DNA of 24,164 nt from a virus. The stretch covers positions 1 through 24,164 of IMG/VR virus record IMGVR_UViG_3300046011_010306; one strand, given 5' to 3'. This document shows positions 16,150 through 23,021 of the stretch, one piece after another (the stretch's first letter is position 1; each line of letters opens with the position of its first letter). The notes below the pieces were generated by a model. The model worked only from the letters and a program-made list of their open reading frames with translations. It did not search any database and was not told where the DNA came from. The position numbers and the translations under genes were made by a program.

Positions 16150-17730
16150 ATGGCAAGGCTTTCAGAAGACCATAAAGAAATTCAGTCTGGTAAAAAATTA
16201 GATGACGAAGGATATAGTGCGAAAATTGAAATGCAAAAAATTGTCCAGTCTATCAATAAACTAAAAAAGGTTATTAAGACCTCTGATCAACAAATCCCGG
16301 CCTGGGTTCAATCGAAAATTACAAAGGCGAGTGATTATCTAGATATTGCGGCTGATTATCTTGCGTCTGATGTTGAGATAGACGAAAGCACTTCATTCAC
16401 TATTAACCCAAAATCACATACTCAGGCTCAAAAAAGAGAAAAAACTACACAAAAAATACAACAAAAAGCAACCAATAATCCGAGCCCAGAAGAAGAAAAA
16501 GTAGCAAAAACAATGCTTTCAAAAAGAGGTCCTCAACTTCCAGAAGAAACCTCTCTGGTTGATAAAATCCTGGCTGAAATGATGGGCGATAAGCCGGGAT
16601 GTGACACAAAAAAGCCAAAAAAGCTAAATGCAATTGCAAAAAAACATAAAGTCTCCATTGAATCACTTGAAAAGCAATTGCAAAAGGGTATTAAAATTGA
16701 AATGGAACACACCAGCGATATCGGAGAGGCCGAAACTATTGCACTTCACCATCTAGACGAAATTCCTGATTATTATTCTAGGCTCCATAAGATGGAAAAG
16801 GGTGCCGAGCTGAATGAAGACCTTAGAGATTGGCTTAAAGATGGAGTTGGTGGCGGTGGTTGGGACAGGTATAACAGTGAAGGAGAAAGAGTTGGTAAAT
16901 GCGGTGATGCAAAAGAAGGTGATCCATACTCGGCGTGTCTATCAAAAGAAAAGGCAAATAAATTAGGAAAAGAAGGAATTGCAAGTTTTGTAAAAAGAAA
17001 AAGAGACGCCCAGGATAAGGCTGGTTATGATGAAAAAGGCGAAGGCCCTAAAGGAAGAAAACCTGTATTTGTAAAAACTAAAATAGACGAGGATCTTGAA
17101 TTTTTAGAAGAAAAAAATGAGCCAACCAATCCTGAACTTTGGTCTAAGGCAAAGTCATTAGCAAAACAAAAATTTGATGTTTATCCAAGTGCCTATGCAA
17201 ATTTATGGGCATCTAAGTGGTATAAAAAAAGAGGCGGTTCCTGGAAGAGTCTTGATGAGGCAACAACTCGCCTTCCAATGCAAACTGGTCAGCTTCTTAG
17301 GGTTCTTATCAATTGGAGGGGTAAGCACCTTTCGGTTCAGATGTTCTTCCCTCAATTAGGAACTCCTAGAAGAGACGAGATTACTTATGCGGTAAATAAG
17401 GTTTATCCAGAGGCCAGAGTAATTAGTTACGTACCTTGTGAAATGGATTCAAGCACTCCTATTGTTCAGGTGAGAGAGGATTGGCAAAAAGTTAATAAAA
17501 AAGACAAAACTGATGGGATGAGTCAAAAGGCGGTAGATGTTTATAGAAGAGAAAATCCAGGTTCAAAATTAAAAACGGCAGTAACAGAAAAAAATCCATC
17601 AGGGAAAAGAAAACAAAGAAGAATTAATTATTGTACAAGATCAAAGGGTCAACAAGAAATGCATAATATTGATTGCTCTAAGACCCCAGATAAACCAATT
17701 TGTAAAGCAAGGCGTCGTTGGAAGTGTTGA
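16150..17730 (+). CDS. Multidomain protein of unknown function between gp16 and gp17
   Basis: This 526-residue Lys-rich protein has several small domains that I recognise from cyanophages and some large DNA viruses. Residues about 20-75 contain IPAWVQSKITKASDYLDIAA. About 150-215 is a DUF5661-like segment (AIAKKHKVSIESLEKQLQKG, then EMEHTSDIGEAETIALHHLD). About 222-310 resembles DUF6321 (DLRDWLKDGVGGGGWDRYNS, CGDAKEGDPYSAC, FVKRKRDAQDKAGY). About 325-370 is DUF5872-like (FDVYPSAYANLWASKWYKKR). About 378-445 has RLPMQTGQLLRVLINWRGKH and QMFFPQ. The end is Cys/Arg-rich (MHNIDCSKTPDKPICKARRR then WKC). Pfam names are from memory. It starts three bases after gp16 and ends 155 bases before gp17. 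Its place between terminase subunits hints at packaging or DNA handling, but nothing in the sequence proves it. Confidence 0.75.
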   Translation: MARLSEDHKEIQSGKKLDDEGYSAKIEMQKIVQSINKLKKVIKTSDQQIPAWVQSKITKASDYLDIAADYLASDVEIDESTSFTINPKSHTQAQKREKTTQKIQQKATNNPSPEEEKVAKTMLSKRGPQLPEETSLVDKILAEMMGDKPGCDTKKPKKLNAIAKKHKVSIESLEKQLQKGIKIEMEHTSDIGEAETIALHHLDEIPDYYSRLHKMEKGAELNEDLRDWLKDGVGGGGWDRYNSEGERVGKCGDAKEGDPYSACLSKEKANKLGKEGIASFVKRKRDAQDKAGYDEKGEGPKGRKPVFVKTKIDEDLEFLEEKNEPTNPELWSKAKSLAKQKFDVYPSAYANLWASKWYKKRGGSWKSLDEATTRLPMQTGQLLRVLINWRGKHLSVQMFFPQLGTPRRDEITYAVNKVYPEARVISYVPCEMDSSTPIVQVREDWQKVNKKDKTDGMSQKAVDVYRRENPGSKLKTAVTEKNPSGKRKQRRINYCTRSKGQQEMHNIDCSKTPDKPICKARRRWKC

Positions 17731-17885: not shown

Positions 17886-20800
17886 ATGTCAGATAGGAAT
17901 TACATGGGAAATCCTCTTCTCAAGAGGGCAAATATTCCCAGTGAATTTACACAAGAGCAATTAGTAGAATTAGCAAAATGCGCTTCTGATCCTGTTTATT
18001 TTGCTAAGAATTATATTAAAATCGTTAACATTGATGATGGTCTTGTACCATTCGATATGTGGCCTTTTCAAGAAAAGATGCTTACGACTTTTCATGAGAA
18101 TAGATTTAGTATTTGTAAACTTCCCCGTCAGCCTCTAGAGGATAACACTCCAATCCCGACTTCTGGCGGTTATACAAAAATTAAGGATTTAAAAATTGGA
18201 GATTGTGTTTATGATTTGTACGGGAAGAAAACAAAAGTCATAAACAAAGTAAGTTATAAAAATACTGAAAAATGTTATAAGCTTTCATTTAAAGGAAAAA
18301 CATTTGAAGAAGAAATCGTTTGTGATAAGGACCACTTCTGGAGAGTATATTTTGACGACACTTCTTCAGTACTAACAGCAGAGCAAATTTATGATTTAAA
18401 AAAAGAAGTTTTCTTAAAAAGACAATCGTTTAATACATTAGTTGATAATTGGGGCGAAGTAATAAAATTAGTATCAATAGAAGAAGTCGAGCCCGTAAAT
18501 GTTTCGTGTGTTGAAGTAGAAAATAAGGACCATTCTTTTTTATGTGGTAAGAATTTTATACCCACAATGAATTGTGGTAAAGCATTAGCATTAGATACTA
18601 AAATTCCAACACCAACTGGTTGGACCACAATGGGAGAACTAAAAGTTGGTGATGAGGTCTTGTCTCCTAGCGGAGATTCAGTCAAAGTATTAACCAAGAC
18701 TGATCCAATGTATGATCATAAGTGTTATAAAATATATTTTGATAATGGAGAAGAAATCGTTGCTGATGCCGATCATTTATGGGAAGTATGCAAAAATAAG
18801 TATAATAGTAAAAAAGAGATATTAACAACAGAACGGTTAGTAGAAAAATATAAAAATAAGACTAGCAAAAGCATTGTAAATTTGTATTACATAAATGTAT
18901 CAAACTCTATAAATTGTTTTACAAAAAAAGAACTTCCTATTGATCCATATTTACTTGGGGTTTGGTTGGGGGATGGTTTTTCTTCCGACAGTAGGATAAT
19001 TGCACATAAAGACGATTTTGAATTCTATAAAACAAAAATTGATAATATTGGACATATAGCAGAATCCAATAATTGTTATAGATTTAATATTCTTGATCTA
19101 CATTCAAAACTAAGAAAATTAAATTTAATAAAAAATAAACATATCCCCCAAGATTATCTGAGGTCTTCTCACGAAGACCGATTAGAACTTCTTCGGGGTC
19201 TTATGGATACAGATGGATCATTAAGACCAAATAGTAGATCATTTGAATTTTACCAAAAAAATTATGATTTAATATTACAAGTAATTGAATTATTGGCAAG
19301 TTTAGGAATAAAATCAAGAACTCGGATTAAAAAAATAAAGGACTGCTTGTATTATACAGTATCATTTAATACTGATGAAATCGTTTTTAATTTACCGAGG
19401 AAAAAAAATTTAATAAAAAAAATTGATAAACCTCTTTATAGAAATAAAAGAATCTACATTCAAAAAATAGAGGAAGTAGAAAGTGTTCCGGTTGCATGTA
19501 TTTCTGTAGATAGTGAGGACAAATTATTTTTATGTGGTAATTCCTTTATTCCTACTCATAATTCCACAACTGCAGTATCATTCCTTCTACACTATGCAAT
19601 TTTTAATGAAAACATCTCAATTGCTATCCTAGCAAACAAAGCATCAACCGCAAAAGATTTACTAGGAAGACTCCAAGTATCTTTTGAAAACCTTCCCAAC
19701 TGGATGCAACAAGGTATTAAATCATGGAATAAAACCTCATTAGAACTTGAAAACGGTTCAAAAATTATAACTGCTTCTACTTCCGCATCTTCTGTTCGGG
19801 GTGGTTCTTATAATATTATCTTTTTGGACGAATTTGCGTTCGTGCCAAATAATGTGGCATTGAATTTCATGAATTCGGTTTATCCGACTATTTCTTCTGG
19901 TAAAGACTCAAAAGTTATAGTTGTTTCTTGTGTAACTAAAGATACTTATTTATTAACGGATAAAGGATACAGAAGATTAGAAAGATTAATAGATGAGTCT
20001 AAAAAGGGAGCATATTATACAGACAATTATATTGTGAGAGGAAAAAATCGATTCTACTCTGGTAATATTGTAGTAAATAATAAAAAATCACCTACAAATA
20101 TAATAAAAACAAGATATGAAGAGCTAGAGTGTTCTGAAGACCATAAATTATGGGCATTCAAAGAAGGAAAATATCAATACGTTAGAAGTAATGATCTATC
20201 TGTTGGAGATTTTATTGCAGTAAAATATAATCAACAAATATTTGGTAATGATGATTATATTGGGTATACTCCAAAAAAAGGTAAATGCACGAACTGTTTT
20301 TCCTGTGATTATGTCAATGAAGACATTGCATATTTTGTAGGATTATACGTTGCGGAAGGATATGCAAGAGAGGTCATTAGCAAGCGCACAGAGTCTCTTA
20401 CGGGGGGTCAAATTGTAATAAGTTGTGGCGATGATATTACAGAATCTTTGAACAAATTAGGAGTATCATATCAAGAAACAGACGAGGTTCATTATACAAT
20501 AAACTCAAAACATCTTGTTGAATTTTTAAAACTACTCGGATTCAATATCAAAAATAAAGCAACTCAAAAAGTACTACCAGATAAGGTATTATCATGGTCT
20601 AAGAAAAATATTACTGCCCTATTAAGAGGCATGTTTGATGGTGATGGCGGAGTGTCTAAAAAAGGTAGAGTAGCATACACTTCTACATCGAGGGAACTAA
20701 TTAGGCAAGTACAGCTTTTATTAGCAAATTTGGGTATTATTGGTACTGTTCGTAAAACTGTATCGGCACCAACTAAAATTGTAAAAGTATATTCTACGCA

Positions 20801-22271
20801 TTATACTATCGAAATAGAAGGAAGTCACTCAGTTAAATATTTTGAAGAGATTGGATTTGGTCTTAAAAGAAAACAGGATCGCATATGTCATTTAAGAATT
20901 CCTAAAAGAATAGGTTCAAATGCCGATTTTGTTCCAAATTCTGCGGTTATTATAAACGAAAATAAAAACAAAGAAATTCGTAAATTAGGTCTTTGTATTG
21001 GTCGAGGAAAGAAATTTAAAAATTTCTCTAGGGGGTTTTTAATCTCTCATAAAGAGAAAATATACGAGCATTCCAATGAAATTTTAAAAGAATTCTTTGA
21101 TGATAATGTCCAAGAGGACATGTATTGGTTAGAAATTAAAAGTATAGAAAAATCAGAAAATGAGGTTTTTGATGTTTCACTGCCAGATATTAAAGAAGAT
21201 AAGTGGGCTCACTCGGTTCTTTATAATAACTTTTTAGGACATCAAACTCCTAATGGACTTAATCATTTCTATAAAATGTGGGATGAGGCCATAAAGAAAG
21301 AAAATGATTATATCCCATTAGAAATTAATTGGAATGATGTTCCTGGAAGAGACGATGAATGGAAGAGAAAAACTATTGCAAACTTGGGATCCCAGAAGGC
21401 CTTCGACCAGGAGTTTAATTGCTCTTTCCTCGGATCATCAGACACCCTAATCTCCGGAGCAAAACTCCAAACACTAGTACATAATAAACCAATAAAATCC
21501 AAAAAGTTCCTTGACACTTATGAAGAGCCGATAGAAGAACATCAATACATGATAACGGTTGACGTTGCAAGAGGCGTCGATCTTGACTATTCGGCATTTA
21601 CTGTTATTGACATAACCAAAATGCCTTATAAAATGGTAGCAAAATACAGGGACAACACAATCAAACCGATTATGTTCCCATACATCGTTAAGGACGTTGG
21701 GCTCCATTATAATAAGGCGTTTGTTTTATGTGAAACAAATGACGTTGGAGATCAGGTTGCCAATGCCCTCCATTATGACCTTCAATACCCCAACCTACTT
21801 ACCTGTTTTATTAAAGGAAGACAGGGGCAAGTTTTAGGTCAGGGGTTTGGTGGAAACCGGGTCGAGTATGGCGTTAAAATGTCTAAAAACGTCAAAAAAT
21901 TAGGCTCGATTAACCTAAAGATGTTAATCGAAGAAGATAAACTATTAATCAATGATTACGATACGATTAATGAATTATCGACATTTATTCAAAAATCCAA
22001 TTCGTTTATGGCCGAGGAAGGCAAAAATGATGACTTGGTTGCCTGTTTAATTCTATTTGCCTGGGCCTCGACAAACGAATATTTCAAAGAAATCACCGAT
22101 GATGATATTAGAAAAAGACTATTTCAAGAGAAACAGGCCAATGAAGAAAACGATATGCTCCCAATTGGGTTTTTAGAAGACGGTCTGCAACAAGAAACTT
22201 TTGTAGAAGACGATAAAATTTGGAGTGTTGTTTCTAATGAGGAACTAGCCGCCCTTTGGAATTTTTATTGA
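17886..22271 (+). CDS. gp17: Large terminase gp17 with three inteins
   Basis: This is the ATP-driven DNA packaging motor and headful nuclease. The precursor is 1461 residues; removing inteins at 83-229, 233-559 and 682-1120 leaves 548, close to other gp17 proteins. Extein segments are 1-82, 230-232, 560-681 and 1121-1461. The N-terminal FDMWPFQEKML and FSICKLPRQ match the region before the T4 P-loop. Joined exteins give RQ-CGK-STT (T4: RQLGKTT), the Walker A motif. Walker B is IIFLDE (D648, E649). VIVVS joined to TPNGLNHFY equals the T4 coupling motif region (IIITTTPNGLNHFY). Nuclease acidic residues are visible as YMITVDVARG (D1226), LCETN (E1283) and NDDLVACLILFAW (D1382/D1383). Without splicing, Walker A and the coupling motif are both broken, so activity must depend on all three inteins leaving. 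The frame is uninterrupted throughout. Confidence 0.95.
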   Translation: MSDRNYMGNPLLKRANIPSEFTQEQLVELAKCASDPVYFAKNYIKIVNIDDGLVPFDMWPFQEKMLTTFHENRFSICKLPRQPLEDNTPIPTSGGYTKIKDLKIGDCVYDLYGKKTKVINKVSYKNTEKCYKLSFKGKTFEEEIVCDKDHFWRVYFDDTSSVLTAEQIYDLKKEVFLKRQSFNTLVDNWGEVIKLVSIEEVEPVNVSCVEVENKDHSFLCGKNFIPTMNCGKALALDTKIPTPTGWTTMGELKVGDEVLSPSGDSVKVLTKTDPMYDHKCYKIYFDNGEEIVADADHLWEVCKNKYNSKKEILTTERLVEKYKNKTSKSIVNLYYINVSNSINCFTKKELPIDPYLLGVWLGDGFSSDSRIIAHKDDFEFYKTKIDNIGHIAESNNCYRFNILDLHSKLRKLNLIKNKHIPQDYLRSSHEDRLELLRGLMDTDGSLRPNSRSFEFYQKNYDLILQVIELLASLGIKSRTRIKKIKDCLYYTVSFNTDEIVFNLPRKKNLIKKIDKPLYRNKRIYIQKIEEVESVPVACISVDSEDKLFLCGNSFIPTHNSTTAVSFLLHYAIFNENISIAILANKASTAKDLLGRLQVSFENLPNWMQQGIKSWNKTSLELENGSKIITASTSASSVRGGSYNIIFLDEFAFVPNNVALNFMNSVYPTISSGKDSKVIVVSCVTKDTYLLTDKGYRRLERLIDESKKGAYYTDNYIVRGKNRFYSGNIVVNNKKSPTNIIKTRYEELECSEDHKLWAFKEGKYQYVRSNDLSVGDFIAVKYNQQIFGNDDYIGYTPKKGKCTNCFSCDYVNEDIAYFVGLYVAEGYAREVISKRTESLTGGQIVISCGDDITESLNKLGVSYQETDEVHYTINSKHLVEFLKLLGFNIKNKATQKVLPDKVLSWSKKNITALLRGMFDGDGGVSKKGRVAYTSTSRELIRQVQLLLANLGIIGTVRKTVSAPTKIVKVYSTHYTIEIEGSHSVKYFEEIGFGLKRKQDRICHLRIPKRIGSNADFVPNSAVIINENKNKEIRKLGLCIGRGKKFKNFSRGFLISHKEKIYEHSNEILKEFFDDNVQEDMYWLEIKSIEKSENEVFDVSLPDIKEDKWAHSVLYNNFLGHQTPNGLNHFYKMWDEAIKKENDYIPLEINWNDVPGRDDEWKRKTIANLGSQKAFDQEFNCSFLGSSDTLISGAKLQTLVHNKPIKSKKFLDTYEEPIEEHQYMITVDVARGVDLDYSAFTVIDITKMPYKMVAKYRDNTIKPIMFPYIVKDVGLHYNKAFVLCETNDVGDQVANALHYDLQYPNLLTCFIKGRQGQVLGQGFGGNRVEYGVKMSKNVKKLGSINLKMLIEEDKLLINDYDTINELSTFIQKSNSFMAEEGKNDDLVACLILFAWASTNEYFKEITDDDIRKRLFQEKQANEENDMLPIGFLEDGLQQETFVEDDKIWSVVSNEELAALWNFY
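18132..18572 (+). mobile_element. Intein 1 of gp17: class 3-like mini-intein, Pro1
   Basis: This 147-residue in-frame insertion (gp17 residues 83-229) lies between Gln82 and Cys230 of the P-loop. Block A is PLEDNTPIPTSGGY followed by LKIGDCVYD. Block B is DKDHFW (H150, W152). Block F is SCVEVENKDHSFL (C208) and block G is FIPTMN (T227, N229), followed by Cys+1. Pro at position 1 has no nucleophile. Trp152, Cys208 and Thr227 form the Trp-Cys-Thr signature of class 3 inteins. Only about 35-45 residues separate blocks B and F, so there is no endonuclease. The usual penultimate His is Met. It is clearly related to intein 2 (shared KCYK..F, EEIV.D.DH.W, IEEVE.V.V.C, FLCG..FIPT). Confidence 0.85.
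18573..18581 (+). other. Three-residue micro-extein Cys-Gly-Lys of the P-loop
   Basis: TGTGGTAAA encodes gp17 residues 230-232, between the end of intein 1 (TMN) and the start of intein 2 (ALALDT). Aligning RQ-CGK-STT with T4 RQLGKTT leaves no gap, so these are native residues. They include the Walker A lysine (K232) that contacts ATP phosphates. Confidence 0.85.
18582..19562 (+). mobile_element. Intein 2 of gp17: class 3-like intein with LAGLIDADG endonuclease, Ala1
   Basis: This 327-residue insertion (gp17 residues 233-559) splits GK from STT in Walker A. Block A is ALALDTKIPTPTGW then LKVGDEVLS. Block B is DADHLW (H297, W299). Block F is ACISVDSEDKLFL (C538) and block G is FIPTHN (T557, H558, N559), followed by Ser+1. 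Ala1 plus Trp-Cys-Thr and Ser+1 fit class 3 inteins. A LAGLIDADG endonuclease is present: first motif LLGVWLGDG (D363), second LLRGLMDTDG (D443). The DNA is strikingly AT-rich: bases 18841-18900 hold 11 G+C of 60, against 25 of 60 at 21721-21780 in the gp17 extein. Confidence 0.9.
19929..21245 (+). mobile_element. Intein 3 of gp17: Cys1 intein with LAGLIDADG endonuclease, Gln end
   Basis: This 439-residue insertion (gp17 residues 682-1120) lies between VIVVS and TPNGLNHFY, the ATPase coupling motif. Block A is CVTKDTYLLTDKGY, with Cys682 as nucleophile. Block B is LECSEDHKLW (H753). Block F is EVFDVSLPD (D1096, the ordinary residue at this position). Block G is NNFLGHQ, ending His-Gln instead of His-Asn, with Thr+1. 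It therefore looks like a class 1 intein with C-terminal Gln, unlike inteins 1 and 2. Endonuclease motifs are YFVGLYVAEGYA (E824) and LLRGMFDGDGG (D920). A Cys cluster CTNCFSC precedes the first motif. The position is exact against T4 gp17, with no extein residue lost or gained. Confidence 0.9.
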
Positions 22272-22274
22272 GCA

Positions 22275-23021
22275 TTATTTAATTCTTATTCTCTTCGATG
22301 GATCTATTCCTCTATTTCTCTGATAAACAGTCAACGGTCCAGGTTTAGATTGAAATCCAGTTTCAGTACATTCCCAAATCTGAGCAGAAGTTACTTTTCC
22401 TCCAACTTTTCCACCTTTTGATGCATTAATTTTTATTTGTTCTTCAGAAATGCCACCAAAAAAACCTATTCCTAGTTCTCTTTGAATTGCTATAGCTTTT
22501 TTTCCATTTTCAGAATGCTTCTCCTTTGAAATTCCATAAAACCCTGTTTTATTTAATTTATTAGTATTGTGTGAATTTTCAAGGGCTCTTTTTCTTTGCT
22601 CTTCAGTTAAATTAAAAATCCCTGTCTCCTGTTCTCTATTTTTTTCGGCTCCTTTTTTTGAATTTTCTTTTCTTTTTTCCTCACTTAAACCATGAACTCC
22701 TTTTTTTAATTCGTAGCATTTTTTACCCGCATTTATAGATATTTGTATGTCCACCACACCATTACAACATCTATTCAGGCAATATGGATCTTTGTTAAAT
22801 ACTTCACTTATTAATTCCTTTTCTTTTCTATATGCATCTTTTCTTGTTGTAAAAGTGTATAAGATTTCTTTTTGGGGAGTATATTTTTTCCAATAATCTT
22901 TGTTAGTTTTTGGCGACCCCATATAATACTCATCAAATTTTTTTTCTTCATGCATCCCATAATAGTAATGGGGAACCTCTAAAAAGGTTATTTTATAGAC
23001 ATAAATTCGTGGTTCAGACAT
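22275..23021 (-). CDS. Free-standing homing endonuclease, GIY-YIG-like with NUMOD3-like repeats
   Basis: This 248-residue protein is the only gene on the minus strand, inserted between gp17 and gp18, which are neighbours in T4. Residues 7-80 (YVYKITF, HYYYGMH, EYYMGSPKT, then RKEKELISEVF) look like a variant GIY-YIG nuclease with a plausible catalytic Glu around 67-73. Four NUMOD3-like DNA-binding repeats follow: GLSEEKRKENSKKG (111-124), NLTEEQRKRALENS (137-150), GISKEKHSENGKKA (163-176) and GISEEQIKINASKGG (190-204). The end (IWECTETGFQSKP, then YQRNRGIDPSKR) resembles a sequence-recognition tail seen in such enzymes. Its stop is three bases from the gp17 stop. The upstream side has a hairpin and late-promoter-like box but no Shine-Dalgarno sequence. 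The target site is unknown. Confidence 0.8.
   Translation of the reverse strand: MSEPRIYVYKITFLEVPHYYYGMHEEKKFDEYYMGSPKTNKDYWKKYTPQKEILYTFTTRKDAYRKEKELISEVFNKDPYCLNRCCNGVVDIQISINAGKKCYELKKGVHGLSEEKRKENSKKGAEKNREQETGIFNLTEEQRKRALENSHNTNKLNKTGFYGISKEKHSENGKKAIAIQRELGIGFFGGISEEQIKINASKGGKVGGKVTSAQIWECTETGFQSKPGPLTVYQRNRGIDPSKRIRIK

Follow-up and report, generated by a model that had tools for sequence, protein, structure and literature searches.

The window, i.e., the whole stretch of DNA analyzed here, is itself a virus record of 24,164 bases, and contig IMGVR_UViG_3300046010_013872 is identical to it across the 11,020 bases compared. It holds T4-like structural genes in order, for baseplate wedge, head–tail connector, sheath stabilizer and small terminase, and then gp17. 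The gp17 ORF was recognized as a T4-type large terminase by Pfam domains for the ATPase (Terminase_6N, 3.9e-16) and the nuclease (Terminase_6C, 8.1e-12), both of which are split by inserts. Among isolates, gp17 was closest to that of Synechococcus phage B23, one of the Kyanoviridae (73% identity, 66% of the query covered), and no locus in the phage record collection covered 80% of the gp17 query. The source virus is related to phages of cyanobacteria. The features of the gp17 gene are listed in Table 1.

Two other ORFs adjoin gp17. An ORF of 526 aa between the small and large terminase (16150–17727) matched DUF5661 and DUF6321; its length varies among relatives, and its dN/dS was above that of its neighbors in most comparisons (0.16–0.38 against the relatives L007–L009). 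Directly behind gp17, on the minus strand, lies a free-standing homing-endonuclease-like ORF (22278–23021; PHROG 314, E 3e-19), for which a Pfam search at 0.01 gave no match. This stretch is skipped in the window alignments of L007, L008, L009, and L017.

Table 1. Features of the gp17 gene in the window, with the evidence on which each assignment is based.
Feature	Position	Strand	Characteristics	Evidence
gp17 large terminase precursor ORF	17886..22271	+	1461 aa, three inteins	Pfam Terminase_6N/Terminase_6C; B23 terminase is the best isolate match
N-extein	17886..18131	+	82 aa, ends in LPRQ	Alleles of relatives, alignment
Intein 1	18132..18572	+	Mini-intein, 147 aa, P83–N229, Pro1, M228–N229 end, without endonuclease domain	Alleles of relatives; fold; PDB profile
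Trp152	18339..18341	+	Intein 1 block B, W of WCT	Block alignment
Cys208	18507..18509	+	Intein 1 block F, nucleophile by homology, C of WCT	Block alignment
Thr227	18564..18566	+	Intein 1 block G, T of WCT	Block alignment
Micro-extein	18573..18581	+	C230-G231-K232, Walker A lysine and +1 Cys of intein 1	Alleles of relatives, S-PM2 alignment
Intein 2	18582..19562	+	327 aa, A233–N559, Ala1, W299/C538/T557, THN end, LAGLIDADG motifs	Relatives, profile
Intein 2 endonuclease region	18933..19448	+	LLGVWLGDG and LLRGLMDTDG	LAGLIDADG_3; limits set for the dN/dS test
C-extein part A	19563..19928	+	STTAVSF... to VIVVS, remaining ATPase domain	B23 allele, S-PM2 alignment
Intein 3	19929..21245	+	439 aa, Cys start, GHQ end, LAGLIDADG_3, class 1 type	Pfam; empty site in L008, L009, and B23
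C-extein part B	21246..22268	+	RNaseH-like nuclease domain	Terminase_6C

An earlier note, made from the letters of this DNA, had placed two inteins inside the Walker A motif (P-loop) of gp17. When the ORF translation was checked, its coordinates and residues for both inteins held to the base: Q82 ends at 18131, P83 starts at 18132 and N229 ends at 18572, while A233 starts at 18582, N559 ends at 19562 and S560 starts at 19563. Both inteins lack an N-terminal nucleophile, and the Trp, Cys, and Thr residues stand where the note had them in each. The interruptions that it proposed, after Gln82 and after Lys232, are borne out by filled and empty alleles in relatives, and the Cys-Gly-Lys micro-extein left between them does hold the ATP-contacting lysine of the motif.

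In silico removal of 147, 327, and 439 residues left a protein of 548 aa, which is the length of the intein-free S-PM2 gp17. The two are colinear: global alignment gave 329 identities in 546 aligned columns and four gap columns, all of the latter outside the P-loop, where RQCGKSTT stands gapless opposite RQTGKSTT. A gapless comparison with T4 RQLGKTT, also put forward in the note, is in line with the T4-like phage ELT3, which reads RQLGK/intein/TTAV (slashes mark junctions). A different P-loop was looked for in homologues, and the sequences of B23 (RQCGK) and S-PM2 leave the reading standing. As for a peptide spanning the restored motif, trypsin would destroy RQCGKSTT, yielding QCGK; Glu-C would give a 30-residue junction peptide of the spliced gp17, NRFSICKLPRQCGKSTTAVSFLLHYAIFNE.

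Further downstream, intein 3 ends with Gln and interrupts VVS/TPNGL. Its junction GHQ/TP recurs in five more loci that are without intein 1 (L028, L076, L081, L096, and L098).

The relatives form an allele series that includes all four states of the P-loop: neither intein, intein 1 alone, intein 2 alone, and both. Neither intein is present in S-PM2 and S-SCSM2R, which both read RQTGKSTT. Orthologues of intein 1 (75–100% identity) were detected in 12 IMG/VR contigs, and a profile-based scan recovered the same 12 among 21 matches. A thirteenth match, L018, was rejected as weak local similarity to another protein. The phage records yielded no match to intein 1 at ≥60% (191 records at E 0.01). In eight of the 12 contigs (L008 and L010–L016) intein 1 is alone in the P-loop, with CGKSTT or SGKSTT directly after it; the junction is FIPTMN/CGKSTT in L008 and FIPTIN/SGKSTT in L010–L016. 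The remaining four (L006, L007, L009, and L017) carry both inteins. L006 matches the window exactly; L017 starts within intein 1 at the contig end, with 116 of the 147 residues visible.

Intein 2 is the sole one of the three inteins in B23, which reads RQCGK/A...HN/TTT, and in at least 68 contigs. Counts for this intein are lower bounds, as they come from the best 80 of 103 relatives; within these 80, intein 1 was found beside intein 2 in four and was absent in 76. In total, sites 1, 2, and 3 were scored as filled (1) or empty (0) at 91 loci, 76 from the intein 2 search and 12 from the intein 1 search. The states were 010 (69 loci, including B23), 100 (eight loci), 011 (five loci), 111 (three loci), 110 (one locus), 000 (two loci), and 01? 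with site 3 unreadable (three loci), numbers that are not population frequencies because the loci were found by searches with intein 1 and intein 2.

As the contigs are metagenomic and both single alleles exist, the pair might be an assembly chimera of an intein 1 allele and an intein 2 allele. We consider this extremely improbable: the same junction was seen in four differing sequences (window/L006, L007, L017, and L009) with different IMG sample ids, and the alleles have just 9 bp in common at the join.

The assignment of both P-loop inteins to class 3 is based on signature residues and homology. When 45 related inteins were aligned by blocks, the class 3 columns took up the W, C, and T of both. 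Intein 2 has a non-nucleophile at position 1, the WCT residues, a THN end, and a +1 Ser (A233, W299, C538, T557, H558, N559, and S560). The alignment of intein 1 comprised 11 of the 12 copies found, L017 being omitted as incomplete at the contig end. Pro1 is present in all 11, so that position 1 is never Cys, Ser, or Thr, and the W, C, T, last Asn, and block B His are invariant. Pro1 also occurs in relatives of intein 2, e.g., L096. The C-terminal residue of intein 1, N229, is followed by a +1 Cys in five of the 12 contigs and by Ser in seven.

The penultimate His is absent from intein 1, which has Met or Ile there (TMN or TIN in place of the usual THN). This residue is usual in inteins of every class and lies outside the class 3 definition. 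It has been described as missing in some inteins that still splice (PMC7664689) and as variable among class 1 phage inteins (PMC5050341). As for the +1 position, Cys was known in one class 3 intein only according to a 2016 paper (PMC5222942), and a 2020 paper lists Cys, Ser, or Thr (PMC7891396).

Profile searches against the PDB placed class 3 DnaB inteins at the top for both inserts. The best matches of intein 1 were 6rix (5.8e-10), 6riy (1.3e-9), and 6bs8 (1.9e-8), and the same three entries came first for intein 2 (6bs8, E = 7e-25). Judged by these E-values, the identity of both inserts as inteins is beyond chance similarity. In Pfam, the splicing-domain model PF14890 was matched by neither intein when searched alone. 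Intein 1 gave a weak PT-HINT match (0.027) and nothing else there, and an NCBIfam search gave no match for it; intein 2 matched LAGLIDADG_3 (PF14528, 2.2e-10), with both LAGLIDADG motifs present.

Modeling of intein 1 with short flanks by AlphaFold2, for which the intein rows of L010 and L016 were left out of the alignment, predicted a complete Hint domain (pLDDT 75.6, pTM 0.73). The seven best Foldseek matches of this model were all chains of 6rix, 6riy, and 6bs8, which were also the top three entries in VIA-align (6rix_B, Z 19.4, rmsd 2.2, 130 aligned). The span aligned by VIA-align, model residues 21 to 167, is exactly P83 to N229, recovering the predicted ends of intein 1. These Foldseek matches and Z-scores indicate an intein fold and not a class: a class 1 Prp8 intein ranked next, its Z of 18.4 lying within 1 of rows two and three, while AceL NrdHF (6zgq), itself a class 3 intein, was not reached until rank 34 (Z 15.7). 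A model of the tandem precursor was weak (pTM 0.51), with residues 224–232 below pLDDT 50. Sequence, relatives, profile search, and predicted fold of intein 1 all support the central claim of the earlier note, that two class 3-like inteins are parted by only Cys-Gly-Lys in Walker A.

Very probably, then, gp17 carries two distinct class 3-type inteins whose splicing yields RQCGKSTT; this confidence is placed in the two splicing inteins and does not extend to the hitchhiking considered below. The terminase would be made as an inactive precursor of 1461 residues with its P-loop broken twice, and each intein would run the class 3 pathway independently. By the chemistry predicted for block F, C208 would attack the Gln82–Pro83 bond and C538 the Lys232–Ala233 bond, the N-extein would be passed to the +1 residue (Cys230 for intein 1, Ser560 for intein 2), and cyclization of Asn229 and Asn559 would release intein 1 and intein 2, respectively. 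No order of splicing would be required because the removal of either intein leaves a type of precursor that is natural in single-intein relatives. Lacking the penultimate His, intein 1 would probably splice more slowly than intein 2. Since the inserts break the P-loop on both sides, the Walker A lysine K232 would stay out of register until both are excised, and RQ-CGK-STT would be restored once intein 1, intein 2, and intein 3 are out.

The two inteins might instead cross-splice: the N half of intein 1 would work with the C half of its neighbor, and both inteins would be lost along with CGK in a single step. Their splicing blocks are ~45% identical and their ends are similar (FLCG..FIPT.N), so the halves could mispair. 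We nevertheless regard such splicing as highly improbable because each intein is found alone in relatives with a full block set and intact flanks, because intein 1 with short flanks is already predicted as a full Hint domain, and because the product RQ-STT would lose the Walker A lysine.

Selection on the inteins was estimated by the Nei–Gojobori method. dN/dS was 0.06–0.24 for intein 1 (seven of seven comparisons), 0.11–0.16 for intein 2 (six of six), and 0.11–0.22 for the endonuclease region of intein 2 (seven of seven), figures that are rough since many dS values exceeded 1. Purifying selection, as read from these ratios, acts on both P-loop inteins. This bears on whether intein 1 might be a degenerate, non-splicing passenger, with gp17 inactive or supplied in trans, as its lack of both an endonuclease domain and a penultimate His could be taken to imply. 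We find this improbable given the selection seen in all seven comparisons and the retention of W, C, T, last Asn, and block B His in the 11 aligned copies. Furthermore, intein 1 is the sole P-loop insert in eight contigs, and gp17 is essential in T4.

Two inteins of the same class at adjoining sites could also stem from a recent duplication in tandem, one intein being copied with a three-residue shift, but this appears very improbable and was rejected by the intein tree. This tree was built after removing the poorly aligned middle and has mostly low backbone supports; in it, intein 1 forms its own long-branched clade (100/100) outside the clade of gp17 P-loop inteins (94.2/95). In their splicing blocks, intein 2 shares 79% identity with the B23 intein, compared to the ~45% shared with intein 1. 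On these sequence grounds, intein 1 did not arise by recent copying of intein 2. In the extein tree, states 111, 110, 100, and 010 occur within one tight clade with inner supports of 43–86.

Synonymous differences between the window and L009, another carrier of the pair, were low across the pair and its flanks (N-extein 0.34, intein 1 0.34, intein 2 0.25, and C-extein A 0.37) and high outside (first part of gp15 0.72, gp16 0.67, and C-extein B 0.67). Taken as two sets, with N-extein, inteins, and C-extein A inside and the first part of gp15, gp16, and C-extein B outside, the difference was 0.30 versus 0.69 (Fisher P = 6e-29, with rounded counts and non-independent sites). The ORF at 16150–17727, at 0.47 overall, was excluded from both sets. 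The minimum, 0.08, was found at 18609–18788, directly behind the micro-extein, and within C-extein B the difference rose from about 0.5 near the start to >0.8 at the end. In the control comparison of the window with L008, this contrast was absent: the values were 0.34 versus 0.39 for N-extein and C-extein A (P = 0.32) and 0.30 versus 0.39 for intein 1 (P = 0.09). The window versus L008 also dips, to 0.11 at 18369–18548, though L008 is without intein 2.

The position of the pair within this tract of low synonymous divergence suggests a joint exchange of both inteins with their flanks, in a single block. Co-conversion around the homing site of intein 2 would leave such a trace. Recombination of the ordinary kind could also account for the tract, since part of the upstream ORF is low too: the difference from L009 was 0.30–0.47 at 16510–17289 and then 0.54–0.57 at 17230–17649, and the tract is not sharply centered.

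With regard to mobility, intein 2 probably homes alone via its conserved LAGLIDADG domain. Intein 1 may hitchhike on this endonuclease: being without one of its own and 9 bp from intein 2, it would be copied along in repair. In addition, intein 1 may guard an allele against intein 2, as its presence leaves just 9 bp of the target's left side. The eight alleles with intein 1 alone fit such protection but prove nothing, and the four double alleles show that the two inteins can co-occur. A more far-reaching reading, which we offer tentatively and think rather unlikely, is that the pair is a composite mobile unit and at the same time an AND gate for the terminase. As a mobile unit it would be co-converted across the 9 bp, with intein 1 shielding single-intein alleles by breaking the left half of the intein 2 target. 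As a gate, it would turn the terminase on only after both cysteine-dependent splicing reactions, given that the Walker A lysine sits between the two inteins.

Among the closest known counterparts, the mycobacterial class 3 DnaB inteins (M. smegmatis DnaBi1 and M. chimaera DnaB1; 6bs8, 6rix, and 6riy), which intein 1 matches best in both sequence and fold, have the WCT residues in common with it. DnaBi1 is a P-loop mini-intein whose host protein also holds an endonuclease-bearing intein, but in M. smegmatis a class 3 intein is combined with a class 1 intein, and the two occupy different motifs, the P-loop and H4, rather than sites three residues from each other (PMC6195587). The same paper reports that splicing of the class 3 mini-intein is inhibited by oxidation (PMC6195587). 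The mycobacteriophage inteins TerL1-a and TerL1-b likewise occupy the P-loop of a large terminase, at sites one residue apart, one of them between the invariant Lys and Thr, and five TerL inteins including TerL1-b were demonstrated to splice (PMC5050341). They differ in belonging to another terminase family, and the accessible text reports no double-filled protein there (PMC5050341).

Haloarchaeal MCM-a and MCM-d are likewise two inteins in one ATPase, one right after the Walker A Lys, with single, double, and empty alleles, whereas the MCM-d site lines the DNA channel (PMC10643990). Both MCM inteins have active endonucleases in the haloarchaeal species studied, as opposed to the gp17 pair, in which one intein has none. 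Neighboring inteins with active endonucleases co-homed poorly in haloarchaea, and the same paper asks how often an endonuclease-less intein uses the endonuclease of a neighbor (PMC10643990). Intein 2 itself is a member, at the same site, of the Kyanoviridae-like gp17 P-loop inteins found in B23 and IMG/VR contigs.

The earlier note knew of no description of paired inteins this close. Searches of open-access literature on paired or close, co-homing, terminase, and class 3 inteins brought up work on close sites and on double inteins but, in the text seen, no two inteins this close in one protein. Additional pairs were sought with the pattern FxPTxN-xGK-xL, which covers only x-Gly-Lys micro-exteins after F-x-P-T-x-N. 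In viral_contigs, it returned six stretches and no further pair: four were the known pair, L103 had no in-frame motif in any ORF ≥80 aa, and L108 was a single intein in another protein. Among the first 120 stretches listed for genome_contigs, no tandem was found; four lay in ORFs >250 aa, three of them passing neither block test and the remaining one, L167, proving on reading to be no tandem. The gp17 pair is the tightest natural intein pair found in the searches made here. While elements of this kind are known, their spacing, the pairing of two class 3 inteins, and the natural allele series are new as far as we found.

The pair suggests that two Hint domains can coexist within an essential active site with only three residues between them. 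As close relatives supply the empty, single, and double alleles, it constitutes a natural factorial experiment on the sharing of intein sites. Two questions could be addressed with these alleles: whether an endonuclease-less intein can spread via its neighbor, as called for in PMC10643990, and whether neighboring inteins aid or hinder each other's splicing. The variants of intein 1 with Cys or Ser at +1 would be of use in studying class 3 chemistry, and protein engineers may take an interest in a tandem that removes itself from around a three-residue insert.

Other multi-intein arrangements were also encountered. The genome of Pseudomonas phage HHBS8_1 (L101, PQ287644.1) contains four loci resembling the class 3 intein 2 query. 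A large ORF with several class 1-type inteins was observed in L018/L122 (one contig) and in L128, with two of the inteins parted by exteins of just 13 residues in L018/L122 and 12 residues in L128.
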